Source: a virus. Taken from it: a stretch of 64,000 nucleotides of DNA. The DNA is taken from IMG/VR virus record IMGVR_UViG_3300025137_005412, positions 88,042 to 152,041 of that record; one strand, written 5' to 3'. Position numbers and translations under genes: made by a program. Positions 10,012 through 39,994 of the stretch are shown here, piece after piece (the stretch's first letter is position 1; every line of letters begins with the position of its first letter). The notes under the pieces were generated by a model that did not search any database, was not told where the DNA came from, and saw only the letters and a program-made list of their open reading frames with translations.

Positions 10012-10313
10012 ACAGAGAAACTTTCACCACATCCACAAGACATAGAAGCATTAGGATTTTTAATTACAAGACTTGATCCTGCAAATTGTTCAACGTAATC
10101 TACTTCAGAACCAAAGATATGTAATTCAGCTATCTTATCTACAACTAATACATCTTCAATTAATACACCATCATCTTCAGTATTAGTAAAATCCCAGATA
10201 TATTCAAAACCAGCACAGCCACCACCTTTAATAGAAAGAAATGCATACTGTTTTTCTTGTGTAGTTAATTTTTCTTTAATATATTTTTTAGCTGATGGTG
10301 ATATACTAAGCAA
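10008..10313 (-). CDS. A-type Fe-S cluster carrier (IscA/ErpA/HesB-like)
   Basis: The three cluster-binding cysteines are in the expected places: GGGCAGF (C33) and SCGCG (C93, C95), with NPNA before the pair. The likely start is a TTG at 10313, with AGGAAAA just before it, giving 101 residues, near the usual size. The ATG at 10394 would add 27 residues unlike the family and lie deep inside the preceding fibre gene. The protein passes iron-sulfur clusters to target proteins. The ferredoxin at 49.5 kb is a possible client. It closes the minus-strand fibre operon. Confidence 0.88.
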   Translation of the reverse strand: MLSISPSAKKYIKEKLTTQEKQYAFLSIKGGGCAGFEYIWDFTNTEDDGVLIEDVLVVDKIAELHIFGSEVDYVEQFAGSSLVIKNPNASMSCGCGESFSV

Positions 10314-10881
10314 AGGTTTTTCCTGTGAATTGAGCGGTACCACCAGTATTTTGTATTTCAAAAGTATTAAATGAAGATACGGTTGTACTACCAAGTGTGA
10401 AGTTAGCTGTTGTTAAATTTGTAAATGTAGACTTACCTGTAGAAGTAAGTGTAGAACCAGAGTTCATTGTTAAATTAGGTATAGTCACATTTGAGTTAAA
10501 TGTAATTGTTCCAGAAGACTTAACATTAAGTGTTCCTTCAACATCTACACTTCCTCTTAGATATGTTTTTCCAATTTGATTTGTTGTACCGTAGTTTGTC
10601 CATATATCATCAGAATCAGTACCATAATATATTGCTGTACCATTAAAACTATCTGAATCTGAACCAAGATAAATTCCACCTTGTTTTATATCAATAGTAG
10701 CGCCAGTAAATACTGCACTTCCAACAACACCAATATTACCATTGAATATGGTATCACCCGTGACTTCTAAGCCAGGCAATGTTATATTAGAAGGATTTTC
10801 AAAACCTGTTAGATTACCATTTTCATCAAATGATAAGGAGCTTATTATATCCGCGTGCTTTCTTGTTTTACTCTTAGCCAT
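10306..10881 (-). CDS. Fibre-like virion protein, MAKSKTR type
   Basis: The 191 residues start MAKSKTRKHADII and continue with beta-rich repeats full of G, T, S and N (NGNIGVVGSAVFTG, GTLNVKSSGTITFN). This looks like a beta-helical fibre shaft or pilot structure. Two DSD sites occur (GSDSDS, GTDSDD). The first seven residues are shared with the protein at 12441-12881, which suggests a common attachment end. The last eight bases overlap the IscA-like gene. Receptor binding or fibre role is inferred from composition. Confidence 0.65.
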   Translation of the reverse strand: MAKSKTRKHADIISSLSFDENGNLTGFENPSNITLPGLEVTGDTIFNGNIGVVGSAVFTGATIDIKQGGIYLGSDSDSFNGTAIYYGTDSDDIWTNYGTTNQIGKTYLRGSVDVEGTLNVKSSGTITFNSNVTIPNLTMNSGSTLTSTGKSTFTNLTTANFTLGSTTVSSFNTFEIQNTGGTAQFTGKTFA

Positions 10882-10885
10882 ATAT

Positions 10886-10893
10886 TATTTATC
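10886..10893 (-). promoter_or_regulatory. Late promoter immediately before a fibre-like gene
   Basis: On the minus strand GATAAATA is followed by only four bases before the ATG at 10881. The site overlaps the stop codon of the upstream gene. The spacing would give a transcript starting at or near the ATG. Confidence 0.5.
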
Positions 10894-12031
10894 CATTCGG
10901 GTCAATAAACTTTACTGTTTGAACTGTAGAACCTCCTACATTTTGTACAGTAAGAATCATTTTAGTTGGTATAGAAACGTTTGTAGAACCTATGTTAAAT
11001 CCATCACTATCAACAGTCATTATATTATGACCACTGCCTGAATGGTTTGCTGTTAATGTACCATCAGAATCTCGTATATCAGATACAGTTAATTGAGGTT
11101 TATTTACTATTGTTCCACTAGAGTTATGTATTGGATTAAACTTAAATGTACCAGTTCCAGTTAATGTAGTATTTTTCATATTTACAAACGATTTACCTAA
11201 CTGATTTGATCCGAAAAAAGTATCTAATCTTTGTGAACCACCATTTGCACCCATACCAGAACTTCTTGAACCTGTATTACCTGAACTATTATATTCATAA
11301 ATAAAACCATTATCTGCGTCAGAGTCAGAACCTAAATATCCCCATATAACATCAGACGCTTTAAATAAAGTTCGACCTTGTAAGTCTAATGTACCGAAAC
11401 TTGTGAATACAGTATTCTCTGAATCGTATTGATTTCCTGCAGTTCTTGGATATCCAAATTGCAGAGGTGTATTTTCACCTGATACCCTAGCAATATTGAT
11501 TCTCTGAGTACCGTGTTTTCTACCAAATATAATTCCACTACGTTTAACAAATCTACTAATACCTCTACTCACTAATCCCTGATTGTTTTGACTTCCACCT
11601 ACTAATATAGAATCTGAATCTAATGGAAATTTTCTATGACGGTTTGTAAAGTCATCTAACTTATCGCCATTTATATCTTCACCAAGAAAGAAGTTTCCTT
11701 TAAAAGTTGTAAGTGAATTATCTGAATCACTACCAATGATTGCATCTTGAAATGGTCTTGCATCTGGCAAATTAGTGGATGAGAATCTATTAAAGTTATC
11801 TGAGTCTGGTCTATTATTAAGTGGGAATAATAAATTTCTTGATGTTCTTGTAAAATGAGTACGTATACTATCTGCACCTACTTCAAGTCTACCGAATTTT
11901 ATTGATGTATCATTACTATTACCAAATGAAATTGCATCAGAATCTTCTGATAAGATAAACTTACCACCTGGACTATTAGGATTTACTAAAGTATTTGCTA
12001 TAAGTCTTGTTTTTGATATTTTTTGTGACAT
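10889..12031 (-). CDS. Virion structural protein, fibre-like, DSD-bearing
   Basis: The 380-residue protein begins MSQKISKTRLIANTLVNP and is rich in S, N, G, D and F, with no recognised enzyme motif. It holds about eight DSD tripeptides (for example SEDSDA, RPDSDN, GSDSDN). The KTR near its N-terminus recalls the other fibre genes of this operon. The C-terminal part (VGGSTVQTVKFIDP) is strand-rich. It lies between two smaller fibre-like genes and is likely a tail fibre or whisker component. Confidence 0.6.
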   Translation of the reverse strand: MSQKISKTRLIANTLVNPNSPGGKFILSEDSDAISFGNSNDTSIKFGRLEVGADSIRTHFTRTSRNLLFPLNNRPDSDNFNRFSSTNLPDARPFQDAIIGSDSDNSLTTFKGNFFLGEDINGDKLDDFTNRHRKFPLDSDSILVGGSQNNQGLVSRGISRFVKRSGIIFGRKHGTQRINIARVSGENTPLQFGYPRTAGNQYDSENTVFTSFGTLDLQGRTLFKASDVIWGYLGSDSDADNGFIYEYNSSGNTGSRSSGMGANGGSQRLDTFFGSNQLGKSFVNMKNTTLTGTGTFKFNPIHNSSGTIVNKPQLTVSDIRDSDGTLTANHSGSGHNIMTVDSDGFNIGSTNVSIPTKMILTVQNVGGSTVQTVKFIDPNG

Positions 12032-12037
12032 AACATT

Positions 12038-12439: not shown

Positions 12440-12440
12440 C

Positions 12441-12895: not shown

Positions 12896-12903
12896 TATTT
12901 ATT
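12896..12903 (-). promoter_or_regulatory. Late promoter inside the fibre operon
   Basis: AATAAATA on the minus strand, overlapping the stop codon of the upstream gene, 14 bases before the ATG at 12881 and followed by an AGGAGA ribosome site. Confidence 0.5.
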
Positions 12904-15013
12904 ATCCAGACGATCGCTTAAACCAAACTTGTACATTCATTTGGATTGGATCTATTGGGTTAGCACTAGCATCCCATGTACGTACACGGATAGCTCTATT
13001 GTTTGGATTTGCAATGAGTGGTTTACCACCAAAGACATCGATTGTTGCTCCTGTTTCTGAATCAGCTCCAGGACCAGGTGCTACTGCATTTGCGCCTTGA
13101 GCATCAATTGATGAGAATATCGGTTGACCTTGTGGTGCACATGTTGATACTGCCATTGACATATAGAATCCATTAGTATCTGTAATTGGTACTACTTCAG
13201 AATCTAATAAGAAGAAGTAAATACCTTCAGCATGTCTTGAATATTTTAACTGATCTGAATCAAATCCGTATGTTGCTCTATCAATAATCTTATTAGGATT
13301 AGGACCATTATCTGAATCAAATGAAACTCTCATCCAAGCTGCTGTGACTGGTGTCTCTTTAATAGCATCTGCAAATTGATGTGTCCATTGACCACCAGAA
13401 TAAACTAATGATTCACCAATACTTGGTTGTTGACCATCGACTGCTTCATCAACATTTGATAATTGACCAAGAGAACTTACTCCAGTTGTTGGACCACTGA
13501 ATGAGTATACAGCTACAAAGTCATTAACACTGAGTTTAGTTGGGAATAATATATCATTACCATTTACTTGATATTCAAGAACTGGTGATTGTGATAGTAG
13601 TAAACCATTAAGGAATACTAATACGTTTTGTGGGTCATTTGATGCTCCTAATACTGGAGAACAATCTACTAATCCAGTAGTAAATCCTGGATGATTAGTA
13701 TTATTCACAGTAAATGTATGTTCTAAAGTATTAAATGATTCTGATGGTAATCTATTACCACCTAATTGGTTTGATACGTTTCTTATCCATACAGCAGATA
13801 ATTCATCTGAATCTTTCACATAGTTATCTGAATCAAATGCAATCATTCTTGATGCTTTGTAAGTGTTTACCTGATCAGAATCTGAATCAAAATAATAGAA
13901 GTCTCCTTGTTTCTGTGATATGTTTATACCATTCAAGAAGATTAAAGGATTACCACCGACTCTAGCAACAATCATATCAGAATCACTGTAGATATCTGAA
14001 TCAATCATTCTAAATGTTTGGTGATTTCCATTTGCACTTTGTGCGGTTGTACGAGATTTTCTAAATACAACAAAATCTGAATCTGCAAATTTAAAGTTCT
14101 TATAGAAGTGAGCTACTGATTCATCAATAGGTGATATAATAGAAACTTCATCATTTGCTTTTAAACTTCCATAGAATTGAATTGCATCAGATGGACCAGA
14201 AACTACTTGGTCAACATCTTTAGTTGTGACATTTGCAAGAATTCTATAATCAATAAATGCATACTTATCAGAATCAGAATCTCTTGTAGTTGTACCTGAA
14301 CCTGTAGGAGATCTACCATCTCCAAATGCATCTGAATCTACTGGCTGTAAATGACCATTAACAAATACTACAGCATTTGCATTTGAAATTACTTTTGAGA
14401 AACCAATCTTTGTATCTGAATCTGTAATTGATTGTGGTGAAACTGCAGCTGACTGAAAGTCAATAGTAAAGTTTCCTGTTTTATCTGGATCTTGTGGTTC
14501 ATACTTATTACCAGTCCATCTTAAATATTGACCAACAGTTGGACCTTTATCATTATTCATATCACTCATTAAACGAGTAGACATTTCAGCTTGTAGTTCT
14601 GCTAATTTAGGATTATAGTTTGAATTTGTTGGGTCTAGATTATTTCTACTTTTTGCTATTACAGCATCAACAACAGCATCCATAAGATCACTATCAAAGT
14701 GTTGACCTGATCTGAATTCAACGGTACCAGCGGTATTAAATGCTTCTTTTCTATCAGCATCTTTTTGTACTTTATTAAATACGAGTTTGTCTTTAATTGC
14801 TGTTGAATGTCTTGTTTCAATTGTAGGATTTGCTTGATCTGGATTTACAATGAATACATCACTATCTTTACCTGAGTTATAGTTTGCATTATCTCTCTTT
14901 ACTGATAACGTAGTAAATGTTTCAATTGTATTATCACTATCAATACGTGATTTAGTTCCGTCAACTACGAAACCAGCACCTAATTTTGATAAATCTCTTG
15001 TCTTAGTACCCAT
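12902..15013 (-). CDS. Large fibre-like virion protein, DSD-rich
   Basis: The 703-residue protein starts MGTKTRDLSKLGAG and has about 16 DSD and two DSE tripeptides, several doubled (RDSDSD, FDSDSD). The middle contains two similar strand-rich segments with NGLLLSQ and VNGHLQP type turns (VFLNGLLLSQSP, VVFVNGHLQPVDS). These recall repeated fibre domains in which a short hairpin names a position along a shaft. The C-terminus (MNVQVWFKRS) looks like a compact domain. No enzyme motif is seen. It is probably a long tail fibre or baseplate fibre. Confidence 0.65.
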   Translation of the reverse strand: MGTKTRDLSKLGAGFVVDGTKSRIDSDNTIETFTTLSVKRDNANYNSGKDSDVFIVNPDQANPTIETRHSTAIKDKLVFNKVQKDADRKEAFNTAGTVEFRSGQHFDSDLMDAVVDAVIAKSRNNLDPTNSNYNPKLAELQAEMSTRLMSDMNNDKGPTVGQYLRWTGNKYEPQDPDKTGNFTIDFQSAAVSPQSITDSDTKIGFSKVISNANAVVFVNGHLQPVDSDAFGDGRSPTGSGTTTRDSDSDKYAFIDYRILANVTTKDVDQVVSGPSDAIQFYGSLKANDEVSIISPIDESVAHFYKNFKFADSDFVVFRKSRTTAQSANGNHQTFRMIDSDIYSDSDMIVARVGGNPLIFLNGINISQKQGDFYYFDSDSDQVNTYKASRMIAFDSDNYVKDSDELSAVWIRNVSNQLGGNRLPSESFNTLEHTFTVNNTNHPGFTTGLVDCSPVLGASNDPQNVLVFLNGLLLSQSPVLEYQVNGNDILFPTKLSVNDFVAVYSFSGPTTGVSSLGQLSNVDEAVDGQQPSIGESLVYSGGQWTHQFADAIKETPVTAAWMRVSFDSDNGPNPNKIIDRATYGFDSDQLKYSRHAEGIYFFLLDSEVVPITDTNGFYMSMAVSTCAPQGQPIFSSIDAQGANAVAPGPGADSETGATIDVFGGKPLIANPNNRAIRVRTWDASANPIDPIQMNVQVWFKRSSG

Positions 15014-15026: not shown

Positions 15027-17372
15027 CTAATTTACCATTGTGTGATACTCAATAGTGATCACATCGGCTATCGCGGTGTTTACCGCAAAGTTAATAACAA
15101 TATTCGAACCTGAAACTGCTGATGAACTTATATCAACCGTATGGTTAACTAAAGCAGTACCTAATCTATTATAAGATTTAGAATTTAATTGTCTTACACC
15201 ATTGTGAAATACTTTAATGTTTTCTGCTAATGGTGTTGTGACTTTATTTGGTACTACAAATGTAAATGATGAGTATGAACCTTCAGAATCATTTACAATA
15301 TGTTCTTGTGTTATCATTCTAAATGAATTAGCAATATGTTTAGAGAATATTTGGTCTATATCACTATCATCTCTTATTACTTGAACAACTCCTCTTGCAG
15401 TTCTTCTCTGTAAGTCAGAGTCTGAATCAAATGTTTGAATATAATTCTTTTTAAGTGTTGCTTTTAAATTTGTACCAGAAACAAGATCATCTGAGTCTAA
15501 TCTTTGAACTCTATCTAAAATTAAATTATCAAATCTTACACGTAGGTCTGAATCTCTAGCCATAGAATCTGAATCAGAAGCAACTGCACTTTCAGATATT
15601 CTATTTAGTAAATGTGTGAATGTTCTTGATACAAGTTCTGAATCTGAATCCATCTTTAAGATTTCTTTTCTTGCTACACTTTGTATAAGATTGTTCTCAG
15701 AATCTTGATTTATTAATTGGTTTATAACTATATCTGAAAGTCTATCTTTAAGACTCGTGTCAGAGTCAATAGTTTTCATTACAATATCATTTACAATAAC
15801 TGATTTATCTGAATCAGTAAATGATCCAATAATTGCTCTTCTTACTTTCTCTAATTCTGAATCATTACCATTCTTATAACCATTATCTGAATCACCAGAT
15901 CCAAATACATATTCTCTTAATGGTCTCCATATTTTATGTCTGTGTAGTTTCTTATCACTGTCAGAAATATTAACACCATTTCCACCAAGATATCTTACAG
16001 AAGTTCTTTCTACAAACTTTTTATTAATATCAAAGAATTTTCTTGCAAATGATGGGTGATACATGTAGTAGTTTGTATGTGTTCTCTTACCACCGTTAGT
16101 TGCTCTACTTCTGTAATCAGAATCTTTTAATTCCATCATGCTGTCTGAATCTACAGCACCAAGTCTGAGTCCCATGAAACCCCAGAAGTTTGCATTTCTG
16201 GCAATTAGATCTGCAATATAATCTGAATCTTTTCTTACTTGAACAAGAACACCCGGTTGGGTTTTCTTATCATAACCTAATGAATATCCTTCAGAGTCTG
16301 AATCAGTTAATACTCCACGACCTTGTTGAGCATCAATTGTTCCTGAACCTGAGACACCTGCTAGATATTGAAACTCTGAATCACGTTTTAGGTGACTAAA
16401 ATCAAGGTAATCATAGAATAAGTTAAAATTACCAGTGTGTAATGGTTGTGATCTTCTTGTGACTGTTTGATATGTAGCACCTAATCTTGTTCCAAGTAAG
16501 TTAGCACCATAAGTTCTCGTATGACCAGCATTAGTAAAGTCTGAATCAAGTATAATACCTTCAACAACTATAGATGCGAGTTTTCTTCTAAGGTAATAAA
16601 GTCTATTTCTGTTTGTATCTGAATCAATTAAATTATTTGTATCTGAGTCATGCTTAAGAGCACCATAAGAGAGATCTCTGTTAAATGGTAATAATAGTCT
16701 TTCAGTATTGCTTGCTGAGTTTCGTAAACCTATAGAATTTTCTTCAAAGAAATCAAGAAATACTTCTAACATGTCTGTTGCAGCTGGTAAGTCTGAATCG
16801 TAATGTAATGGTAATTGTCTTGCAATAGCTTTATAGCCATCACTATCATTCTTGACAATATTCAATTCAGCTTGTAATCTTCTTAGTTCTACTTGATCAA
16901 ATTTTATGAAGTTTATAAAATATGCTTTTAGTAATGTTTTGAAACTTATAAATTTTGATGCTGAATCAGAGTCAGCCGCCATCAATACATGCGGAGCTCC
17001 TTTATAAGTGTTTCCTGCACCATCATCAAATGAAACAGGTATCTCATCTATGAAAGATCTAAGTTTTGACCATTCAGCTGAGTTAGGACCAGTGCCACTA
17101 TCAATAGCTGAAGTCTTACTCCAACCAGAAGGCTTGCCATAATATTCTACTAGGTGATCGCTATCTATGTTTTGGTATATTGTATTGATGACATCTGAGT
17201 CCATGGTTCGAGCGATTGAACGAACATAGTGTCTGAGATCATCAGAAACTCGTTTTGAATCGTGGGCCGTAACTCCACGTGAGTCATATATTTTTGAGAT
17301 TTTTGCCCAATCGGAACGTAATCCCGTTACGTCGGTCTGAAAGGGTCTTATCTCGGAATCATTCAATGCCAT
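15027..17372 (-). CDS. Very DSD-rich fibre-like virion protein
   Basis: The 781-residue product has about 23 DSD and five DSE tripeptides, the highest density in the window. Residues about 520-672 form a periodic series in which each DSD opens a helical unit of roughly 16-25 residues. The last 90 residues (FTFVVPNKVTTPLAENIKVF and then HNGVRQLN) look like a separate strand domain similar to the NGxxL hairpins of the next gene. It starts the minus-strand fibre operon from a divergent late promoter. A trimeric fibre shaft with a C-terminal cap is the likely form. Confidence 0.65.
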   Translation of the reverse strand: MALNDSEIRPFQTDVTGLRSDWAKISKIYDSRGVTAHDSKRVSDDLRHYVRSIARTMDSDVINTIYQNIDSDHLVEYYGKPSGWSKTSAIDSGTGPNSAEWSKLRSFIDEIPVSFDDGAGNTYKGAPHVLMAADSDSASKFISFKTLLKAYFINFIKFDQVELRRLQAELNIVKNDSDGYKAIARQLPLHYDSDLPAATDMLEVFLDFFEENSIGLRNSASNTERLLLPFNRDLSYGALKHDSDTNNLIDSDTNRNRLYYLRRKLASIVVEGIILDSDFTNAGHTRTYGANLLGTRLGATYQTVTRRSQPLHTGNFNLFYDYLDFSHLKRDSEFQYLAGVSGSGTIDAQQGRGVLTDSDSEGYSLGYDKKTQPGVLVQVRKDSDYIADLIARNANFWGFMGLRLGAVDSDSMMELKDSDYRSRATNGGKRTHTNYYMYHPSFARKFFDINKKFVERTSVRYLGGNGVNISDSDKKLHRHKIWRPLREYVFGSGDSDNGYKNGNDSELEKVRRAIIGSFTDSDKSVIVNDIVMKTIDSDTSLKDRLSDIVINQLINQDSENNLIQSVARKEILKMDSDSELVSRTFTHLLNRISESAVASDSDSMARDSDLRVRFDNLILDRVQRLDSDDLVSGTNLKATLKKNYIQTFDSDSDLQRRTARGVVQVIRDDSDIDQIFSKHIANSFRMITQEHIVNDSEGSYSSFTFVVPNKVTTPLAENIKVFHNGVRQLNSKSYNRLGTALVNHTVDISSSAVSGSNIVINFAVNTAIADVITIEYHTMVN
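15357..15815 (-). repeat. Protein-level DSD repeat series in a fibre gene
   Basis: In residues about 520-672 of the fibre-like protein, units open with DSD (once DSE) at intervals of about 16-25 residues; one closely spaced pair is the exception. A Leu lies two to four residues later in most units. Serine codons differ between units, so it is a protein repeat rather than a recent DNA duplication. Confidence 0.6.
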
Positions 17373-17838: not shown

Positions 17839-19653
17839 ATGTCCGACAATAGACCAATTATAGCCAATCCTGATTTCAATGATATAAAACAGGATATCAT
17901 TACACATTTCAAAGCAGATTCTAATTTTGCTGACTATGATTTCAAAGGTTCAGCTATGAATACTATCATAGATATTCTAGCTTATAACACACACTATAAT
18001 AATCTTGCTGCAAACTATCTTGTAAATGAATCATTCTTAGATACAGCACTCATGAGAAATAATATCATTTCAATTTCTAAGATGTTGAACTATACACCAA
18101 GATCTAAAGCTGCAGCTAAAGCAAGTTTAACATTAAGAATTCCAAAAGTAAATGGTAATAACGTTTACACAATTCCAGCTGGAAGTTTATTTACCGCTTC
18201 TGATGGTTCAACAACATATAACTTCTACACATTAAGAAACTACAGTGTTCAATATGATGCAACTGATGCGAACGGTGTCACAAGAGATGTGATTATAGAA
18301 ATTTGTGAAGGTGATCAAATTACACAAAGATTTGCAGCTACAGCTGAACACACAAGTTTTCCTAAATTTGAATTAGGTAATAAAGGAATAGACACAAAAA
18401 CAATTAGTGTATCAGTAAATGGAGAGACTTGGACACCAGTCACAAACGATACACAAGGAACCACTGGAGTTTCAAACCTTAGTACAATATATTTTATTGA
18501 AGAAACAAGAAATTTACAACATAGTATTATGTTTGGTAATGGTGTATTAGGTAAGAAGCTAGAAGTTGGTGATGAAATATTAGCAACATACATCGTAACG
18601 AATGGTGCAGAAGCAAATGGAATTAATAATTTTTCAATTAAGATTTCTGGAAGATCTGATATAACAACAGTATTGACAGTGCCAGCTGATGGTGGTGGTG
18701 ATATAGAAACTATAAGAGAAATTAAAGACAACGCACCTAACTGGTTCCAAGCACAATTCAGAGCCGTAACAGAAAATGATTATAAAGCTATATTAAAAAA
18801 AGAGTATGCTGATATTCAAGCTTTGAATGTTTATGGTGGTGAAACTGTAGGTAAACCTGGTAAAGTTTTCTTTTCAATTAAACCAAAGTCTGGTGACAAA
18901 TTAACAGAACAAGCAAAACTTACAATCACTAGAGATATATTATCTAAATTTAATCTTGTGACTGTCACACCAACTGTTGTAGATCCACTTATAACAAGAA
19001 TTATTGTTAAAACAGTTTTACAATTTGACAACTCTAAGATTACTACAAGTTCTGAAGTTTTAGAATCTAAAGTATTAGCATTGTATAATGTATTGAACTC
19101 ATCTTACATTGGTGATTTTATGGAATCATTCTCAGTGTCAAGATTAATGGAAGAAATTTTAAAGCTAGATAATTCAATCACAGCTGTAAATCCTAGAATC
19201 AATTTAAGATTTAATGTAAATGCAAAGAATTCGCTTTTAGATAATTCATCATTCACATTTAATAATAGATTACATACTGAACCTTATGCTGGTGAAGCCT
19301 CTGTAGGTGGTGTATTAAATTCAACATTATTTAAAAGATCTGGAAGAACTAACTTCTCCAAATTTGTAGATGATGGTAAAGGAATATTAAGACTTGTTGA
19401 TGTAATTGAAGGTTCAAACATTATTGTTAACACATCAGCAGGAACAATAAATTATGAAACAGGTGAAGTTAATGTCACTGATTTTGATCCAGAAGATGGA
19501 ACAATTGGTTTTATCGTTATACCAGAATCTTTTGATGTTCAGGTACAAGGTAATTATCTTTTACAAATATCAACTGGAGATTCAACAGTAAGAGCGATTG
19601 ATAAGAATGATACAGCTTCACTCAACTTATTTAATGTATCGAGAGCAAGTTAA
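17839..19653 (+). CDS. 6: Baseplate wedge protein gp6
   Basis: The product has 604 residues (T4 gp6: 660). The N-terminal part carries the family pattern FKADSNFADYDFKGSAMNTI and then IDILAYNTHYN, followed by NESFLDTALMR and a domain with FGNGVLGKKLEVGD. gp6 (TssF-like) forms the baseplate inner ring with gp7, gp25 and gp53. Despite its size it has no DSD tripeptide, in sharp contrast to the next gene, with which it overlaps by one base. Confidence 0.93.
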   Translation: MSDNRPIIANPDFNDIKQDIITHFKADSNFADYDFKGSAMNTIIDILAYNTHYNNLAANYLVNESFLDTALMRNNIISISKMLNYTPRSKAAAKASLTLRIPKVNGNNVYTIPAGSLFTASDGSTTYNFYTLRNYSVQYDATDANGVTRDVIIEICEGDQITQRFAATAEHTSFPKFELGNKGIDTKTISVSVNGETWTPVTNDTQGTTGVSNLSTIYFIEETRNLQHSIMFGNGVLGKKLEVGDEILATYIVTNGAEANGINNFSIKISGRSDITTVLTVPADGGGDIETIREIKDNAPNWFQAQFRAVTENDYKAILKKEYADIQALNVYGGETVGKPGKVFFSIKPKSGDKLTEQAKLTITRDILSKFNLVTVTPTVVDPLITRIIVKTVLQFDNSKITTSSEVLESKVLALYNVLNSSYIGDFMESFSVSRLMEEILKLDNSITAVNPRINLRFNVNAKNSLLDNSSFTFNNRLHTEPYAGEASVGGVLNSTLFKRSGRTNFSKFVDDGKGILRLVDVIEGSNIIVNTSAGTINYETGEVNVTDFDPEDGTIGFIVIPESFDVQVQGNYLLQISTGDSTVRAIDKNDTASLNLFNVSRAS

Positions 19654-31613: not shown

Positions 31614-31792
31614 TGCATAAACGTGATTTAAAAAGAGATCCTAAGAATGGTGCTCTATTAAATACTAATAGACAAGATGTTATTGAGTACAAAAAGAAAA
31701 TTGCTGAAGAACATGAAAATGAAAAAAGATTAACAACACTAGAAAAAAAGATGGATAAAATTATAAACATATTGGAGAAGCTTGATGGCTAA
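31613..31792 (+). CDS. 59-residue coiled-coil tail protein
   Basis: The ATG overlaps the stop of the giant protein (TAATG), and the stop overlaps the start of the next gene. The peptide starts MHKRDLKRDPKNGALLNTNR and continues with a charged heptad-like helix (KRLTTLEKKMDKIINILEKL). Small proteins with the KRDLKRDPK opening and a coiled coil occur among baseplate genes of marine T4-like phages, from memory. It may be a small adaptor or assembly factor. The gapless overlaps support real translation. Confidence 0.7.
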   Translation: MHKRDLKRDPKNGALLNTNRQDVIEYKKKIAEEHENEKRLTTLEKKMDKIINILEKLDG

Positions 31793-32627
31793 TTTAAGAG
31801 ATATACTAGTACCAAATTTTGGATTTCAGGATTCTGATACTGAAGTAGGTATTGCTCCAGTTAATATAGATTCAGGTACTTTACCATTTAATGATGCTAG
31901 CAGAATTGTAAAAAACAATGTTAGAATTAATATTGGTTCTTCACCTAATTCAAACACAGGTGATCCATTAAGAACAGCATTTATTAAAATTGGAAACTTT
32001 ATGGAAGCAGTTTATCGAGCTGACTCTGATAAAGACTTACGTGTTAAAAGATTTGAAACACCAGTAGGTGACTCTGACTTTAGAATTTTAGGTGTCAAGA
32101 GTTGTGATGATTTAAGATGGGATTCTGATGGTGTACATACAAATTTAGGAAATGCAAACACAGGATTTGATAGTGATACATTTGCTGGTCTAAAACCTGG
32201 TGATACATTACTCCTTACAGATCAAATATCTCCTAGAAGTAGACAGTCATTTGTTGACAGATATGCAAGATCTAATCCACACGGTCGTATTGATATTAAT
32301 ACAGTAAGACTAAAAAATAATGAATACAGTGTAAACGCACCAGCATTCTTAAAAGTAGGCGCTGATGGTTTATTAAAAGTACAAACTGAGTTTGCCTTAG
32401 ATCAAGTTGGTCTTGATTTTGATGGTGCATTAGAAAGATTAAGTGCAGGTACTCAAAAAAGTAAACTAAGCTCAGCAGATCAAAAAAAATTATATCAAGA
32501 CTTTAATGATGTTCAAGGTTTAACATCCTCATCTTTCAGAATCAGTGCTAGTAATATAGAAGATGGCTTTGCTGAATTAGTAGCCAGACAAGTAAGGATT
32601 GGATACGATGCAGGATTCTATGGATAA
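31785..32627 (+). CDS. Tail structural protein with a GDPLRTAF motif, DSD-bearing
   Basis: The ATG at 31785 is chosen; a TTG one codon earlier also exists. The 280-residue protein has the sequence NTGDPLRTAFIKIGNF at about 61-76, a motif shared by many T4-type baseplate and fibre proteins near their attachment end. Five DSD sites occur in the N-terminal half and none in the last 140 residues. The C-terminal half is a compact domain with helices (LERLSAGTQKSKLSS). It lies just before gp14, so a baseplate outer or neck-fibre part is possible. Confidence 0.6.
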   Translation: MANLRDILVPNFGFQDSDTEVGIAPVNIDSGTLPFNDASRIVKNNVRINIGSSPNSNTGDPLRTAFIKIGNFMEAVYRADSDKDLRVKRFETPVGDSDFRILGVKSCDDLRWDSDGVHTNLGNANTGFDSDTFAGLKPGDTLLLTDQISPRSRQSFVDRYARSNPHGRIDINTVRLKNNEYSVNAPAFLKVGADGLLKVQTEFALDQVGLDFDGALERLSAGTQKSKLSSADQKKLYQDFNDVQGLTSSSFRISASNIEDGFAELVARQVRIGYDAGFYG

Positions 32628-32636
32628 TGAGCACAG

Positions 32637-33737
32637 ATGTCAACAGTAAGAAACAACTTTGCAGGATTCACAATCGCACCAACCGGATTTGGTGGAGATT
32701 CAGATAACGATTCCGATTTCGGTGAAAATCTAAACCGATCAATACAAGCAATCAATAAATCTTATGCCATTAAATCAGGCGTACAAAACACATTCATCGA
32801 TGGATACATAAATCAATTTGGTGCTTCATCACGTTTCTCTACAAATGAACAGAGAACAATGCAGAACCTTATTAGAGAATCAATTAATGTTAATGGTATA
32901 ACAATACGTTATATGCCAAGAGCATCTGATTATACTGATAATGTTTGGAATGAAAGACCTGAATCTCACTTTGATTCTGGTTATCAAATAGATATGCTTC
33001 TCGTAGCTTCTGCTGGATTTGAAGGTGAAGGAGATACTATGACTCTTTATGGTATGGAGTTCAGAGAAGAAGTTATAATGTCTGTTGCAATTAATAATTT
33101 TACACAAAAAGATTCTGATTATAGAACAGTACTTAAACAAAGACTTACTGATTCAGATGGTTTTGCTACAGGAGGTGAATCTGCTTCTAATGATTCTGAT
33201 TCTGATCAATATCAAAAATTACTTTCAAAATTTGCAAGAACAAGACCACTTGAAGGTGATCTTATTGTAATACCATTTGGTAGATCTGCACAAAACAAAA
33301 GTCAGTATGTACCAAAAGTCTTTGAAATTACTCGTGTGACCACATATCATGATGGTGCTTTCTTTCAATTAGGAAATAACTATCAATATAAGATACACGC
33401 TAAACTATTCGAATTATCTGGAGAAGACTTGTACTTCAATCCAACTGCTATTACATATAGTAATACAGGTTCAGCTACAAGTACTACAGACGAAATAGTC
33501 ACGCAAGCGGCAACAGGAATTACATTTACTGATTCAGAAACTAAAGCTATTGACATAACTGATAGTGATTTAATTACTGACTCTTGGGCTTCTAATACTG
33601 AAATTGAACAAAGAGCAGAAAGTCAAGAAGTCTATGATAATAATGGTGTAGTAAGAGAAACACCGAAAACAATAACAGATGACTATACAGCGAGAGCTTT
33701 TGGTCAACCAGGAATAAGGAATTTGGATAATATCTAA
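32637..33737 (+). CDS. 14: Neck protein gp14
   Basis: The 366 residues match the T4 gp14 plan: ITIRYMPR, an acidic stretch, FEGEGDTMTLYGMEFREEV, PLEGDLIVIPFGR, FEITRV and FFQLGNNYQYKI. gp14 and gp13 form the neck that seals the filled head and meets the tail. The T4 protein has 256 residues; much of the extra length is in DSD-bearing inserts (GDSDNDSDF near the start, TDSDGF and NDSDSDQ in the middle, TDSDLI near the end). It overlaps gp15 by one base. Confidence 0.88.
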   Translation: MSTVRNNFAGFTIAPTGFGGDSDNDSDFGENLNRSIQAINKSYAIKSGVQNTFIDGYINQFGASSRFSTNEQRTMQNLIRESINVNGITIRYMPRASDYTDNVWNERPESHFDSGYQIDMLLVASAGFEGEGDTMTLYGMEFREEVIMSVAINNFTQKDSDYRTVLKQRLTDSDGFATGGESASNDSDSDQYQKLLSKFARTRPLEGDLIVIPFGRSAQNKSQYVPKVFEITRVTTYHDGAFFQLGNNYQYKIHAKLFELSGEDLYFNPTAITYSNTGSATSTTDEIVTQAATGITFTDSETKAIDITDSDLITDSWASNTEIEQRAESQEVYDNNGVVRETPKTITDDYTARAFGQPGIRNLDNI

Positions 33738-34603
33738 TGTTAGGAACTCACTTTTATCACGAAACTGTTAAGACTGCAACTGCGGTCTTCGGTAGTTTAT
33801 TCAACAACATCGTTATCAAAAGACGTGATGGTAAACTATTACCTGTTCCTATTTCTTATGGTCCAAGACAAAAATGGTTGGAAGCTCAAAAAGGTTTAAG
33901 ACCAACTGAAGAGATGTTTGAAAAACTATTACCAAGAATGTCTTATGAGTTTGTTGCAATGGTTTATGATTCAAATAGAAAATTAAACAACAAACCAAAT
34001 GTATTTAGATCTCCAGATAGTTTAGCTTATCCAAGACAAAAGGCTAATATGCCTACACCATACACTTTATCATATACATTACATATTGAAACAAAGACAT
34101 TGAATGATGGATGGCAAATTATAGAACAGATTGTACCATTCTTTAACCCAGCTTATACTGTCAAAGTAAGACATTTTCCTGCTGATGCAGATACTAATAC
34201 ACCAACACCTACAAATGCATTTGACATGCCGTTCCAACTTACATCAGTCACATGGACAGATGATTGGACAGGAGATATTAATACAAGAAGAACCGTAGAA
34301 TGGACACTAGAATTTGAAACAAAAACTTGGTTCCATGGACCGATTGCAGCAACAAAAGTAATCTTAGATTCAAGAGCAATAGTTGCTACTCCTGGAAATG
34401 CAACAGATTCTGATAGACAAGATCTTAACCTATTAAGAAGAAGTGATAGTGATCTTATGGGAGCTGATGTAGGTTATGCTGTGCTTCAGAAAAATGACTC
34501 TGAAGGTATATATGACAGTGACTCGAAAGTTAGTCCAAGTATTACAAACTTAACAGACTCTGATGGATTAAGAGTATTATTAGTACGAGATTTCAACCTC
34601 TAA
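33737..34603 (+). CDS. 15: Tail sheath terminator gp15
   Basis: The 288-residue product resembles T4 gp15 (272 residues): VFGSLFNNIVIKRRDG near the start, VPISYGPRQKWL, LPRMSYEFVAM, TLSYTLHIETKTL, GWQIIEQIVPFFNP, and RRTVEWTLEFETKTWF. gp15 caps the finished tail and joins it to the neck. Four DSD tripeptides are present, all in the C-terminal 75 residues (TDSDRQ, SDSDLM, YDSDSK, TDSDGL), a tail added after the conserved domain. Confidence 0.9.
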   Translation: MLGTHFYHETVKTATAVFGSLFNNIVIKRRDGKLLPVPISYGPRQKWLEAQKGLRPTEEMFEKLLPRMSYEFVAMVYDSNRKLNNKPNVFRSPDSLAYPRQKANMPTPYTLSYTLHIETKTLNDGWQIIEQIVPFFNPAYTVKVRHFPADADTNTPTPTNAFDMPFQLTSVTWTDDWTGDINTRRTVEWTLEFETKTWFHGPIAATKVILDSRAIVATPGNATDSDRQDLNLLRRSDSDLMGADVGYAVLQKNDSEGIYDSDSKVSPSITNLTDSDGLRVLLVRDFNL

Positions 34604-34618: not shown

Positions 34619-36043
34619 ATGGCCACAAAAGATTTAATCAACTTAGGTATATCACCCGACTCAGGAACAGGAGACTCGGCAAGAAAAGGTGGAGCAAAGA
34701 TAAATGATTTGCTTTCAGATGTTTATAGTAAATTCGGTGACAATCCGATTGGTCAAGATATAGACAAACCTTTCTATGGTTATCGTAGAAGATTTGGTGA
34801 GTTTGAATATAGAGTTGGTGAATTACATCCTGCGGGAAAATACCTCAACATCTCTTTTAGAACTGTAAACGCCAATAGAGATTCAGATTACACAACTGGT
34901 TTTAAATTACTAGATCAAACAAGAGGTTGGAGAATCGATGCTGATTCAGATAATGATGGTATTCCAGATTTATATTTAGATTCAGAATTTTATTTTGCAT
35001 CAAGAGGAGAAACTATCGATGTTGATGTTTCTGGTGTAGATGTAAATAGAACTGCTCACGTAGTATTACCTATTGCACAAGCTGGTGATGTAATTAAAAT
35101 AAGAGAATCAAGAGGTTCTTTCTCAAATGGTAGGTCAATGTCAATATGGACAACACCATTTAGATTCAAAGATTCAGATCAAAGAGCTGAATGGAAAAAC
35201 AATTCAAATAACGTTGTAGCACCACAAAATAAACACACATTTGTAAGAGACATTGATGGTACATTTCAAAATGCATCAGCATTTAGTATTCCATTTGATT
35301 CAGAAGGTGCAGTATTTTCTCAACGTTCATTAGGTTATGGTGTAAGTTATGCTGGTGAACTTGGTTCATACGGTATTAAGTCTTCTATTGAACTAAATTC
35401 AAATCATTCTATATATGAGTTTACATATTCTGGCCATGATATTGGTTGGGTATTTGTAAGACATAATATAAGAGCATCAGCAAGAGATTCAGATAATTTA
35501 AAAATCTATACAGATATATTTGATTCAGATGATTGGCATCAAACAACTGCTAATTTCACAATTGGCGGTGTCACAGAAGTTCCATCTGGTAGATATATGC
35601 TACCAATAACAAGATATTCGTTTGCTGATACAACATTTAGTAGAGAGTTTGAAAGTTTACAATCTGTAATGGATGTTAAGATCTATAAAGCTGTAATGCA
35701 AGATGGAAACAAAACTACTATAAATAATGAAGTACTAGAATTTATTAGATCACAACTTTATAACTCAATTGATTCTGAAATGGGTGCAAGTAATACTGAT
35801 TCTGATAAAGTTTCAAGATTTAAAACGGTATGGGGTACTCAAGGTGCAGACTCAGATAGCGCACAACCTGGTTCCTATACAAATACAAATAGCTATGGTG
35901 CTGATGGTTATACTGGATTCAATGATGTTGATAAGATGTTTATTCCAGTTGATGTCACAACAGTTATGGATAATGAAGGAAATGCAATTGTATTTTCACA
36001 AACAAAATTTAAAGGACAAGCAAAGATTATAACTTTAGGATAA
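34619..36043 (+). CDS. Fibre- or baseplate-like structural protein, DSD-bearing
   Basis: The 474-residue protein opens with DLINLGISPDSGTGDS and ARKGGAKINDLLSD, a variant of the GTGDPLRTAF.KIN attachment motif. The rest is strand-rich with aromatic positions (YGYRRRFGEFEYRVGELHP). About seven DSD sites are spread along it (RDSDYT, ADSDND, KDSDQR and others). The C-terminus (NAIVFSQTKFKGQAKIITLG) looks like a fibre end. It is probably a virion surface component; the exact role is unknown. Confidence 0.6.
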   Translation: MATKDLINLGISPDSGTGDSARKGGAKINDLLSDVYSKFGDNPIGQDIDKPFYGYRRRFGEFEYRVGELHPAGKYLNISFRTVNANRDSDYTTGFKLLDQTRGWRIDADSDNDGIPDLYLDSEFYFASRGETIDVDVSGVDVNRTAHVVLPIAQAGDVIKIRESRGSFSNGRSMSIWTTPFRFKDSDQRAEWKNNSNNVVAPQNKHTFVRDIDGTFQNASAFSIPFDSEGAVFSQRSLGYGVSYAGELGSYGIKSSIELNSNHSIYEFTYSGHDIGWVFVRHNIRASARDSDNLKIYTDIFDSDDWHQTTANFTIGGVTEVPSGRYMLPITRYSFADTTFSREFESLQSVMDVKIYKAVMQDGNKTTINNEVLEFIRSQLYNSIDSEMGASNTDSDKVSRFKTVWGTQGADSDSAQPGSYTNTNSYGADGYTGFNDVDKMFIPVDVTTVMDNEGNAIVFSQTKFKGQAKIITLG

Positions 36044-36046: not shown

Positions 36047-38215
36047 ATGACTATTAATTTTAATAACGGCAGACCAACATATCAACACAGAAGATCTTTA
36101 TCAACAGGATTGAATGCTGAAGGTCAACCAACCACAGATCAGATAGAACAAGGTGAGATAGCCATTAACCTTTCTACAAGAAAGATTTATACAAAACGTC
36201 CTACTGTTTCTCGTGACTCTGATGGTAAATCAGATGTTTTAGAAGTAGGTAAAATATTAAGAAGTGGTGTTAAATATCGTCTTCCAGGATTTCAACCATT
36301 TGGTCAACAGATTCAAAATGGTGGTCAAATTAAAGTTATTTCAAGAAGAATTTTAGATTCAGATCAAGCTGGTTTATCAGTTAAAATTAAAATTAGACAA
36401 CATGGATTTTTAGATTCTGATGAAGCACTAAACTATACAAGAGATTCAGATGCTTATGCTATAACCATGACAGATTCTGATGGTACAAATACATTAGCAT
36501 CATCAGCTGCAAACAGAGATGGTACTATTACTAATGGTGATGGTAAAGCTTATATGATTCGTCATATACCAGTTTTCAAAGCTTTTTGTGATAGAGCTCA
36601 ATCAGATAAGTTAAAGTTATTGCTTCATGATTCTGATGGTACCGCAGATTCTGATGGTACTCCTGTTAATGCAGTTTCTGGTTCTAAATTTGGTGGTGGT
36701 ATTGTAGAAGTATCTTTCAATATTGATTCAGATTTAAGTTCAACAGAAATAGCAACAAGAATTTCAAGTGCTGTAAATAGTTCATCAGCACTAGCCGCAA
36801 TGGATGCTAAGATTAAAGCTGAAGTTGATAGAACAAGTCCAGATATTGTATACATTTATGGTGGTGATAAAAAAATTACAGTAGAAGCTTCTGATAAATT
36901 TACTAAGACTATTGATAATTCAATCACACCATTATTTAAGTTTGTACCACAAGATTCAGATACTAATTTCTTAAAGAGAGATTCAGAGAATGATTCAGAC
37001 TTTGCAAAAAGAGTTGAAGTCACATTCTTCTACTTAGATGAAACAAAACCAAGAATTGCCGCTACTGGTGAGATCATGGATACTTCTACATTCGGTATTG
37101 ATACTATTTCAAACTCACCTATCTTTGCAAGAAATTCTCTTATTCTAAAGAATGTGGTCGGTAATATTGGAACTGTTGATTCAGATCAAACAGCTCCTGG
37201 TCAAGTAAATGCTACAGAAAATAATAGATTCAAATTAAGACCAGCTGCATTTACCGGTGTTGATGAGATTATTGCACTTAATGCGGTTGCAGTTGTAAGT
37301 GCTACACCACCTGCATTTGATATTACTAACGGTTCATTATGGTTAGAAGATAATAGTAATAAAACACCAAGATTTGATGCTGTTGATTCAGAAACCCATC
37401 ACATGGAAGTTGTATTCAACAGAAGAGGCACATTCACAGGTAATCCAGATTCAGAATTCTCAGTTCCTTACGGTGCATTAGTAAATCAAACAGCTGCCGA
37501 TTCAGATGATAAAGTATTAAACATTAATGTTGGAGATTCAGAAGCTGGTGTTGCAAGAAAAATTGTAAACTTATTAAATGATTCTGATTATAAAACAAGA
37601 GCAGGTAGAAAAGGAACAGCAATTCAAAGAAACTCTATGGGTTCAGGTCTCATGGGTAGATATGATTCAGATTCAGATGGTTCTCCTAGAGGAACAGGCT
37701 ATAAGTTCATATCAGTAATGTATGATTCAGAGCATGACTCTGATCTATTTGGTAAGAGAATTTATCTACCAACAAATGATGATTCAGATGGTAGAAATAT
37801 TGTAGTAAGAACTGGCACAGATACCGATCAACATTTTGATGGTCTTGTTATTGAGATAATCAATAAACAAACAGAGACTGGTAGAACATTTGCAGGTTTC
37901 AGAGCCGCAGAGATTTACTTCTTAGATGCAACATTAATTGATGATCCTACAGCACAAACTAAAGCATTGGATTTATCATCTGCAGAAAGAACAGATAAAA
38001 ATATTGTTAAACACTCAGTAAAACCAGGTATGAGTAATACCGATTCAGATGGATCATATAGATATGCTGAGTGGAGAACTATTAGTTCAACATCAGTACT
38101 TTCACCTCAAGCACTATCACTTAGTATTGCTGGTCAAAGTTTCTCAAGTACACAATCATTAATTGTACAAGATGTGAATGGATTAACGGTTCTTTCTGGT
38201 CAACTATTAGTATAA
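36047..38215 (+). CDS. Tail fibre-like protein, DSD-rich
   Basis: The 722-residue product starts with a typical fibre attachment pattern: a polar leader, then QIEQGEIAINLSTRKIYTK, like the GE(L/I)A.N..D.K.Y.K motif at the start of many phage tail fibres. About 18 DSD tripeptides follow, some in short runs (NDSDFA, YDSDSDG). The middle is strand-rich, and the end (LSIAGQSFSSTQSLIVQDV) is repetitive and beta-like. It is a good candidate for a long surface fibre. Confidence 0.68.
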   Translation: MTINFNNGRPTYQHRRSLSTGLNAEGQPTTDQIEQGEIAINLSTRKIYTKRPTVSRDSDGKSDVLEVGKILRSGVKYRLPGFQPFGQQIQNGGQIKVISRRILDSDQAGLSVKIKIRQHGFLDSDEALNYTRDSDAYAITMTDSDGTNTLASSAANRDGTITNGDGKAYMIRHIPVFKAFCDRAQSDKLKLLLHDSDGTADSDGTPVNAVSGSKFGGGIVEVSFNIDSDLSSTEIATRISSAVNSSSALAAMDAKIKAEVDRTSPDIVYIYGGDKKITVEASDKFTKTIDNSITPLFKFVPQDSDTNFLKRDSENDSDFAKRVEVTFFYLDETKPRIAATGEIMDTSTFGIDTISNSPIFARNSLILKNVVGNIGTVDSDQTAPGQVNATENNRFKLRPAAFTGVDEIIALNAVAVVSATPPAFDITNGSLWLEDNSNKTPRFDAVDSETHHMEVVFNRRGTFTGNPDSEFSVPYGALVNQTAADSDDKVLNINVGDSEAGVARKIVNLLNDSDYKTRAGRKGTAIQRNSMGSGLMGRYDSDSDGSPRGTGYKFISVMYDSEHDSDLFGKRIYLPTNDDSDGRNIVVRTGTDTDQHFDGLVIEIINKQTETGRTFAGFRAAEIYFLDATLIDDPTAQTKALDLSSAERTDKNIVKHSVKPGMSNTDSDGSYRYAEWRTISSTSVLSPQALSLSIAGQSFSSTQSLIVQDVNGLTVLSGQLLV

Positions 38216-38223
38216 GGTAAATT

Positions 38224-39204
38224 ATGGCAAGACCACTAAAGATTAACGGAACTTCTGGTTTAAAGCAAATGACCGATGGCGAGTTGGATCGTATACAATA
38301 TAATCTCAGAATACGTTATGCAAGTTTTTTAAGGTATTGGCATACTAGTTCAGGTGTTAACGCAGCTGGCGGACAAACAACTTCAGGTAATGGTCCAGGA
38401 GGAGCATTGAATGTTGGTTCAGTTTCTGGTTGGACTTCAATCGGTTCTGCAACAGATACTATATCTACTCAACAAACTGCAACTAATCCAAGAAATAACT
38501 CTGGTGGTGATGATTATCCAGCTTCTCCAGGTATTGGTTCAAGTACAGTCACAACTTATGCTTACTATCAGAATAGAGCTGCTACAAATTTAGGTACTAG
38601 TTTTTCAGGTAATGATCAATATTCATATTTAAAATTCATATCACCAGCAACTTTAAGAACAGCATCAAATTATGCAACTGATTTCTTTGATGAAATTATT
38701 ACTCAATGTATAACTGATATGGGTACTGGTGATGAAGTAGGATCATATAGAGTTAGTACATCTGCACCTTCAAGTGGTGGTGCTGGTACTTGGGTAGATT
38801 GTGGAACATTCCATAGTGATACTACATACTCAGCTGGTACAACAACACATAAATTGTGGTTAAAGACTGCATTAGATTCTGTTCCAGGTTCTGATGTAAA
38901 ACCAGTTATGTGGAGTGGAAGTGCTATAAAAGAAGTTGCTTCTATTACAGAAACAGGTTCATGGCAAGCAACAAGTTTTATGGATCAAAGTTTAGTGCCT
39001 GCTTTAATTACAAGACTTTCATCACAAAATTTACAATATTCTGTAGGTACTACAGCATCTAATTCTAGAGGAAGTTTTACAGATACAAGACAAACAGGTT
39101 CAACAGACGCAAGTTCATTTAGTGATCCAACATATACAATAGTTTCAACACCATCTGGTTCTGCTTCTACACAAACTACTAACTTCTTGAATTTAGCTTA
39201 CTAA
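38224..39204 (+). CDS. Virion structural protein, MARPLK type
   Basis: The 326 residues start MARPLKINGTSGLKQMTDGE, then ELDRIQYNLRIRYA, an N-terminus I associate with structural proteins of marine T4-like phages. The body is Ser/Thr/Gly-rich and strand-like. There is no DSD, although the genes on either side carry it. A GGTAAATT stretch precedes the ATG. It may be a fibre or baseplate accessory protein. Confidence 0.6.
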   Translation: MARPLKINGTSGLKQMTDGELDRIQYNLRIRYASFLRYWHTSSGVNAAGGQTTSGNGPGGALNVGSVSGWTSIGSATDTISTQQTATNPRNNSGGDDYPASPGIGSSTVTTYAYYQNRAATNLGTSFSGNDQYSYLKFISPATLRTASNYATDFFDEIITQCITDMGTGDEVGSYRVSTSAPSSGGAGTWVDCGTFHSDTTYSAGTTTHKLWLKTALDSVPGSDVKPVMWSGSAIKEVASITETGSWQATSFMDQSLVPALITRLSSQNLQYSVGTTASNSRGSFTDTRQTGSTDASSFSDPTYTIVSTPSGSASTQTTNFLNLAY

Positions 39205-39208
39205 CGGA

Positions 39209-39216
39209 AATAAATA
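39209..39216 (+). promoter_or_regulatory. Late promoter immediately before the 257-residue gene
   Basis: AATAAATA, four bases before the ATG at 39221, in the 16-base gap after the MARPLK-type gene. Confidence 0.5.
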
Positions 39217-39220
39217 ATAT

Positions 39221-39994
39221 ATGAATGATTCTGATAACATTATAGAACAAGAATATCCTGAAGATTTTAAATCTGGCGATATTAAAACGTTTGATCGTGA
39301 AGGTACAGAAGTACCTAGAGAAGATATGAAGATTAAACGTGGAGGAGTTCTACAAAATCAAGGTCAAAGACCAGAAGAAATTGATGGTAGTCTTACTGTT
39401 AAAAATGTTCAATGGCTTGATGAAGAAAGAACTGCTGTAAGAGTATCTTTCTTTGATTCAGAAGGTTGGGGAAGAGTAGAAAATCATGCTGCTAACACAA
39501 ATGGTTCAGGTACTTTCTTCTCTAAAGTATTACAACAATACACTATTGACGATATTGATAAAGATACATCAGACTTCTGGAAAGCAGAACAAGATGTTGC
39601 TGAAGAATTACAACAATTCAGAGAATGGAAATCAGCTGGTGGTTTACTAAATACCCACATTGATGAAGATGAACTTCGTATGGAAATTGAAAATGAAGTT
39701 AGAGGTCAAATAGAATTAGAAAATCCTATTGCTCCAGAACCTGAAATTGTAGAAAAAATTGTTGAGAAAGTTGAAGAAATACCAGTTGAAGTTCCTACTA
39801 TATCAGTAGAACATATGGCTAAGAACTATTCTCAAGAAGACTTATTTAGAATGAAAATTGAAGTCTTTGATATCCCTGCTGTAAGAGCTGCTAGCAAAGA
39901 TATTAAATCACGAATCCGTAAAGCTGCTACCCCTGTTGAGTTGTTCTCCATAATTCATGAAGCGAATGTGTCTTTTGAAAATGAACAAGCTTAA
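39221..39994 (+). CDS. Acidic unknown protein at the end of the tail block
   Basis: The 257-residue protein is acidic and helical, with one DSD at its start (MNDSDN). A middle part has VRVSFFDSEGWGRVE. A Glu/Val/Pro-rich run (EIVEKIVEKVEEIPVEVP) links to a C-terminal helical part. Its last 68 bases overlap the end of the opposing glycosyltransferase-like gene. I do not recognise a family; it may be a tail accessory or chaperone-like protein. Confidence 0.6.
   Translation: MNDSDNIIEQEYPEDFKSGDIKTFDREGTEVPREDMKIKRGGVLQNQGQRPEEIDGSLTVKNVQWLDEERTAVRVSFFDSEGWGRVENHAANTNGSGTFFSKVLQQYTIDDIDKDTSDFWKAEQDVAEELQQFREWKSAGGLLNTHIDEDELRMEIENEVRGQIELENPIAPEPEIVEKIVEKVEEIPVEVPTISVEHMAKNYSQEDLFRMKIEVFDIPAVRAASKDIKSRIRKAATPVELFSIIHEANVSFENEQA

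Follow-up and report, generated by a model that had tools for sequence, protein, structure and literature searches.

Strict Asp-Ser-[Asp/Glu] tripeptides are enriched in the outer virion proteins of a marine T4-like phage clade and may mark serines for modification

Short motifs built on Asp-Ser serve as glycosylation sites in described bacterial systems. The staphylococcal enzyme SdgB glycosylates a bare Asp-Ser-Asp (DSD) peptide, its minimal substrate (PMC8561734). O-glycosylation in Bacteroidota uses a D-S/T-x motif whose third residue is specific to the species or lineage, and the motif is enriched genome-wide in surface proteins (PMC12871550; PMC8550257). As for phages, phage-encoded glycosyltransferases of the mycobacteriophages Che8, Corndog and Myrna are reported to modify the phages' own capsid and tail proteins (PMC12363180). 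Here we describe DSD and Asp-Ser-Glu (DSE), together written DS[DE], in a window of 64,000 nucleotides, the whole stretch of DNA that was analysed (G000:88042-152041 of the 152,041-bp IMG/VR virus record IMGVR_UViG_3300025137_005412, a T4-like virus with 33% GC). We propose that D-S-[D/E] works as an acceptor sequon at which the serine is modified, most likely O-glycosylated by phage-encoded glycosyltransferases of the GT-A fold, and give this reading a probability of about 55%. The initial annotation of this DNA knew of no such genome-wide tripeptide, and none was found in open-access full texts.

That annotation had counted DSD by hand. Its counts of 23 in a 781-residue fibre protein, 18 in the gp7-position protein, 18 in a 722-residue fibre and 16 in a 703-residue fibre are all exact, and the four to eight copies it gave for gp8, gp14, gp15 and gp18 are 6, 7, 4 and 5. 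When the 17 proteins with at least two DSD are pooled (9,751 residues), DSD occurs 140 times against 6.4 expected from their own composition (z 53), about 22 times the expected frequency. The additional DSE sites that had been noted amount to 39 against 3.0 expected (z 21). These 17 proteins were picked for their DSD content, and the unselected test is a shuffle of all open reading frames of the record: across 178 frames, 189 DS[DE] are found against 30.4 ± 5.1 in 300 within-protein shuffles, with a shuffle maximum of 51. The excess over composition that the annotation had wanted checked is therefore real, and the observation is confirmed in a stronger form than first stated.

The motif is strictly D-S-[D/E]. 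In the same 17 proteins the near variants are not enriched, be it DTD (3 against 5.4 expected), ESD (1 against 3.0), ESE (0 against 1.6), NSD (2 against 5.1), DSN (1 against 5.1) or DSS (1 against 7.1), and the same is true for DAD, DGD and DND. Following DS in the virus's own genome, the third residue is D in 131 of 224 cases (19 expected) and E in 38 (10 expected), all other residues being at or below expectation. The flanks of the sites share no further motif in this genome; most sites are lone tripeptides, and the longest run is DSDSD. Because the serine is invariant and DTD, DAD, DGD, ESD and ESE are not enriched, general acidity is not the selected trait. Given the strict serine, pure acidity or metal binding was rejected as the cause.

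The signal lies in the protein and not in the DNA, as the initial annotation had argued from the varied serine codons. Motif serines are encoded by TCA (91), TCT (53), AGT (23), TCC (5) and AGC (3), a usage that does not differ significantly from that of other serines in the same proteins (p=0.085). The nucleotide pattern GAYTCWGAY is an in-frame DSD in 111 of its 114 occurrences in the window. Between relatives, synonymous drift affects 36% of motif serines and 33% of other serines, and because serine codons drift freely, selection acts on the protein. A DNA repeat or a frame-independent DNA signal is ruled out by the in-frame sites, the ordinary codon usage and the synonymous drift. Switches between TCN and AGY codons are rarer at motif serines than at others (3.6% vs 8.8%), so that a Thr or Cys intermediate seems not to be tolerated.

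Alignment with relatives indicates how the sites persist. At 85-95% protein identity all 222 of 222 own DS[DE] sites are kept, 9 of them by a D/E swap, and at 70-85% identity 248 of 254 are kept, 20 by D/E exchange and with only 2 partial motifs; control hydrophilic triplets are kept identical in 71% and 52% of cases at these two levels. At 50-70% identity 126 of 213 own sites are kept and DSx intermediates are absent; a separate count at this identity level gives 100 shared sites, with 77 confined to the window's proteins and 53 to those of the relatives. All these pair counts are phylogenetically non-independent, several contigs being close relatives. Sites are thus almost never lost below 30% divergence and then turn over, mainly via substitution: where a relative lacks a site, the difference is a substitution in place in 409 of 528 cases (77%) and a gap in 119. 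The sites are under purifying selection, with turnover.

Two ideas in the initial annotation bear on this pattern. Its suggestion of a short acidic loop that was added repeatedly does not hold, acidity not being the selected trait and insertion being rejected as the main route by the predominance of in-place substitutions. It had also considered that the sites might occupy the same columns by common descent only. On this the outcome is mixed: in close relatives the sites coincide and hardly vary, but at 50-70% identity they turn over, and the relatives' non-homologous fibres are loaded equally (in locus L041, fibres without a counterpart in the window have 36, 25 and 15 DSD).

The relatives available for comparison are all metagenomic contigs, mostly partial. 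Contigs with visible structural genes and a terminase at least 64% identical to that of the window are mostly DS[DE]-enriched, and a wider clade recruited via the gp15-type protein is enriched throughout. No excess is seen in cyanophage-like contigs (terminase about 52% identical) or in the named phages S-SM2, Mosig and pf16. The DS[DE] loading belongs to a single clade of uncultured marine T4-like phages. One named phage, C48C1, with 12 DSD, was dropped as a carrier: DS as a whole shows no enrichment in it, and fibre repeats account for most of its sites.

A second set of marine phages, recruited via glycosyltransferase homologues, is enriched in a different motif, D-S-[A/D/S/G/N]. In this clade 2 the pooled third residue is A 219 times against 49 expected, D 77 against 40 and E once against 16, with I, L, V and T depleted; in clade 1, that of the window, it is D 478 times against 74 and E 148 against 40. 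The wider clade keeps to this D/E preference, with D 579 times against 97 and E 174 against 48. Both rules hold after repeat-rich fibres are removed, E in clade 2 then being 1 against 12. For gp8 orthologues, the third residues read D6E4 in the clade of the window and A3S2G2 or the like in clade 2, with baseline values elsewhere, and by our own reading of the alignment the gp8 sites of the two clades seem to fall mostly in different columns. In DS-positive loci, the dipeptide DT does not exceed expectation. That clade 2 takes Asp but not Glu looks like the size selection of an enzyme, for which charge or folding would offer no obvious explanation. In the long proteins of the clade-2 records G032-G036, sites recur in a context of the type [I/L]-D-S-A-Y-V-Q-A, and some clade-2 fibres probably carry DSA within a repeated unit.

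In the window, the proteins bearing DS[DE] are fibre-like, baseplate (gp7, gp8 and gp9/10-type), neck, sheath and adaptor proteins. On the minus strand lie a 191-residue fibre-block protein with 2 DSD (10306-10881), a 380-residue protein, probably a fibre, with 7 DSD and 1 DSE (10889-12031; 0.27 DSD expected), and the fibre-like proteins of 703 residues (12902-15013; 16 DSD and 2 DSE, 0.67 DSD expected) and 781 residues (15027-17372; 23 DSD and 7 DSE, 0.90 DSD expected). The plus strand then carries the 1415-residue gp7-position baseplate wedge protein (19653-23900; PF23786 Baseplate_wedge, phrog_2885/17744) with 18 DSD and 11 DSE (0.85 DSD expected), the 470-residue gp8-like baseplate wedge protein (23900-25312; phrog_438, E 5e-46) with 6 DSD and 4 DSE, a 2090-residue virion-type protein (25341-31613; phrog_358) with 8 DSD and 2 DSE, and a 281-residue protein between gp8 and the neck genes (31782-32627) with 5 DSD. 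Next on this strand are the gp14-type neck protein, head closure Hc2 (32637-33737; PF11649, phrog_460; 7 DSD and 1 DSE), the gp15-type tail sheath stabilizer (33737-34603; phrog_227; 4 DSD and 1 DSE), the gp9/gp10-type baseplate/fibre connector (34619-36043; PF07880; 7 DSD and 3 DSE) and the 722-residue fibre-like protein (36047-38215; 18 DSD and 5 DSE, 0.70 DSD expected). Further along the plus strand are the gp18 tail sheath (56384-58177; 5 DSD at residues 101, 107, 151, 184 and 283), the head-tail adaptor Ad2 (60331-61323; phrog_211; 3 DSD and 1 DSE) and a 126-residue protein adjoining the head protease gene (62277-62657; 2 DSD).

The restriction to outer virion proteins that had been claimed is supported, though the gp6-like baseplate protein (17839-19653) and a 326-residue protein (38224-39204) within the annotated span have no DSD. 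Tail tube, portal, terminase and head protease have no DS[DE]; the scaffold of the relative G015 has 0 against 1.8 expected, and its major capsid protein has one. Non-virion proteins have 6 DS[DE] against 16.8 expected, or about 11.7 after correction for the cyanophage baseline, a depletion too weak to rely on. The sheath sites of the window all lie between Gp18_domIII_N (29-88) and Phage_sheath_1 (312-481), and clade homologues that carry any have them at residues 101-315 only. We take this stretch to correspond to the outward domains I and II of T4 gp18; judged by this domain layout, the sheath sites are confined to predicted outward-facing domains. Surface exposure is argued from protein identity and the sheath domains, the predicted gp8 structure (mean predicted local distance difference test, pLDDT, 46) being too poor for site mapping. 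Outside the window, among early/middle genes, two proteins at G000:36231-36881 and 41968-42933 (L008:17231-17878, L009:3968-4930) carry 5 DS[DE] each and have no PHROG match; their motif suggests that they are virion proteins so far unrecognised.

The reading of D-S-[D/E] as an acceptor sequon is proposed because the tripeptide is strict, its serine central, its sites exposed and threonine not tolerated, and because the two dialects differ only in the third residue. O-glycosylation is favoured because of the SdgB, Bacteroidota and mycobacteriophage precedents. The modification of the serine, the sugar as adduct and the identity of the acting gene are what we infer. Late in infection, a sequence-specific enzyme would covalently modify the serine of each tripeptide that lies exposed on one of the outer virion proteins, and with fibres, baseplate wedge, neck, sheath and some head proteins as targets, each particle would bear very many modified sites. 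The chemistry would be O-glycosylation by cytoplasmic, nucleotide-sugar-dependent GT-A-fold glycosyltransferases encoded in a cluster adjoining the late genes; different clusters may extend or decorate the sugar differently, and the second clade's sequon would be D-S-[A/D/S/G/N]. The chances are about even, in our judgement, for the wider proposition that marine T4-like phages have clade-specific virion-wide sequons read by phage-encoded enzymes, with the tail and fibre surface chemically coated and the code shifting with the enzymes.

The cluster in question (39927-54066, mostly on the minus strand) is an insertion with the neck/fibre genes on one side and the terminase genes on the other. 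It encodes three glycosyltransferase-like proteins, a methyltransferase-like protein, several Asp-hydroxylase-like oxygenases, a short-chain dehydrogenase, two sulfotransferase-like proteins, a PP-loop-like SGGSES protein, acetyltransferase-like proteins and a fatty acid desaturase, some of these assignments being readings of sequence motifs by eye. Its gene content shifts fast between related phages. All on the minus strand are a GT-A-type glycosyltransferase-like protein (39927-40595; the DxD motif is read from the sequence as VIDIDIL) whose family is widespread in marine phages, with 156 relatives in IMG/VR; the candidate modifying enzyme, with a predicted GT-A fold and a DLD motif (40571-41353); a methyltransferase-like protein read from sequence and alignment (41350-41997), paired with a glycosyltransferase in most clusters; a glycosyltransferase (41988-42671; phrog_1962 'glycosyltransferase', E 3e-9); and an Asp/Asn beta-hydroxylase-like oxygenase, a rival modifying enzyme (43103-43870; PF05118, E 3e-8). 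The AlphaFold2 model of the 40571-41353 protein has a GT-A fold (pLDDT 79, predicted template modelling score 0.83), and its Foldseek matches in the PDB are LARGE1 (3e-8), UGGT (template modelling score 0.6), GT8 enzymes and GlyE; a GT8/GT24-like fold is predicted. The cluster is plausibly involved in the modification. It also holds, at 49498-49764, an 88-residue ferredoxin-like protein with cysteine clusters that adjoins the desaturase gene and occurs in one other fetched locus only.

The close family of the 40571-41353 enzyme is found at only 23 IMG/VR loci, nine in the window's clade and 14 elsewhere. Among the latter, 10 of 14 are DS-enriched (z 3.5 to 5.3; L193, L195, L198 and L206 are not), and of about 50 loci with only the 39927 family, 3 reach z 2.5 (L128, L180, L183), the loci being related to each other and these counts uncorrected for kinship. 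Several observations weigh against phage-encoded glycosylation by this cluster. L193 and L198 hold the close family and are without DS excess. The family is missing from the distant DS[DE] records G003, G021, G025, G027, G028 and G029, whose clusters are visible and hold only distant glycosyltransferases. Glycosyltransferase-methyltransferase pairs are present in 11 of 19 DS-negative contigs too, and Asp-hydroxylase-like genes are about equally common in DS-positive records (PF05118 in 14/20). No gene of the SdgB type, GT4 (PF00534, Glycos_transf_1), was found in 22 related records, control genomes being positive.

As the lone responsible gene, the 40571-41353 enzyme looked attractive but is contradicted by the wider DS[DE] clade: in its more distant records the slot holds no glycosyltransferases but distant ones, together with GT8, radical-SAM/SPASM and carbamoyltransferase genes. 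An unbiased gene-trait search singled out just three groups as near-universal among DS-positive contigs, namely the glycosyltransferase superfamily, the methyltransferase family and structural genes, of which the first two also occur in many DS-negative contigs. No single enzyme stood out in trees of the glycosyltransferases and the methyltransferase, a search for bacterial homologues of the 40571-41353 enzyme gave no close match, and a terminase scan of bacterial genomes, run for the host, returned distant contigs only. In a DS[DE]-positive phage (L226:15112-20440), the slot next to the late genes that holds glycosyltransferases in the window is taken by a row of four radical-SAM proteins, two of them with SPASM domains. 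Locus L193 (record G037) has the whole glycosyltransferase operon; there the dipeptide AN occurs 130 times against 54, mainly in long fibre-type proteins, an excess that might reflect a repeat in the fibres or a different tag.

The sequon might instead be modified otherwise than by a sugar on serine, through Asp beta-hydroxylation by the cluster's Asp_Arg_Hydrox-like oxygenases, sulfation by its sulfotransferase-like proteins (46234-48239) or phosphorylation. With the PF05118 oxygenases of those 14 related records, the first Asp as invariant as the serine, and sulfotransferase-like P-loops (PRSGST, GMGRCGTT) readable in two cluster proteins, this has some appeal, yet we judge it unlikely: the sulfotransferase-like genes are limited to the window's near clade, a PF05118-type oxygenase is also present in the DS-negative phages G037 and pelagiphage Mosig, and Asp hydroxylation leaves the exclusion of Thr for Ser unexplained. 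Phosphorylation by a protein kinase was rejected, no PF00069 being found in 20 related records. Clusters differ greatly across the wider DS[DE] clade while the motif rule is constant, so the motif-reading enzyme could sit outside the cluster, the host included; the hosts of DS[DE] phages would then have one serine-modifying system and those of clade 2 another. We find a host enzyme quite improbable. Phage assembly takes place in the cytoplasm. Among bacterial D-S/T sequon systems, the only one described well targets proteins that are not cytoplasmic (PMC12871550).

Explanations without covalent modification fare no better. A strict, highly repeated motif that is exposed in the sheath would fit docking, of a decoration protein or of a ligand on the host or the particle, but a site of three residues, present on many unrelated folds and lacking a flanking preference in this genome, would dock very weakly. 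Nor would a metal-binding DxD need the serine: DTD, DND and DGD are not enriched, and the exclusion of Glu in clade 2 does not suit metal binding. Docking or metal binding is in our view very improbable. Least credible, and already disfavoured, is a structural or compositional by-product, with DSD as a favoured turn, a helix cap or a copied fibre repeat. Some sites do stand where a helix probably begins, and relatives have some long, repetitive fibres in which a DSD or DSA register recurs. Against this, the sites occur in diverse sequence contexts across many unrelated proteins, the excess survives removal of the repeat fibres, the equally good caps DTD, DSN and NSD are not enriched, and cyanophages and other named relatives have the homologous proteins with no excess.

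Even leaving mechanism aside, it is unusual to find a tripeptide under selection across many proteins of unrelated kinds at about 22 times the expected frequency, with a different dialect in each of two clades, and this can be tested directly. If D-S-[D/E] is an acceptor sequon, the outer surface of one kind of ocean virus would be coated via a sequence code that genomes reveal directly, and phage virion modification would become predictable from sequence. It would give a computational handle on phage enzymes that modify proteins rather than DNA or lipopolysaccharide, and would suggest why marine T4-like phages have, close to their late genes, such a large number of glycosyltransferase, oxygenase and radical-SAM genes that lack an explanation.

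Among T4-like phages, the cyanophages and pelagiphages exemplified by S-SM2 and Mosig share homologous baseplate, neck and sheath proteins, and in Mosig, too, oxygenase, methyltransferase and carbamoyltransferase genes lie close to the late genes, but neither phage has a DS[DE] excess. The mycobacteriophages likewise carry glycosyltransferase genes (here phrog_1962 for 41988-42671 and a predicted GT-A fold for 40571-41353); they are other phages with other enzymes, and the available part of their description reports no genome-wide three-residue sequon (PMC12363180). Transfer in Bacteroidota is periplasmic, from a lipid (undecaprenyl) carrier, unlike the cytoplasmic assembly of phage virions. 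The Bacteroidota system also uses Thr, which is not used here (DTD 3 vs 5.4), and its third residue is mainly hydrophobic (A/I/L/V/M/T), as opposed to D/E in clade 1 or A/D/S/G/N in clade 2; what the two share is the D-S core, in which Glu is mostly not tolerated for Asp, a third residue that varies by lineage, and a motif enriched in surface proteins across the genome (PMC12871550; PMC8550257). SdgB and SdgA are alike in the minimal Asp-Ser-Asp acceptor, in the serine that accepts the sugar and in having glycosyltransferase genes adjoining the target genes (PMC8561734). Their targets, however, are low-complexity SD (serine-aspartate) repeats of cell-wall proteins, where here the tripeptides are scattered and mostly single; DSE is used here too, and GT4 is absent, the candidate having a predicted GT-A fold. 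Membership in the SdgB or the Bacteroidota system fails on these defining features, and the resemblance is in the proposed mode of action.

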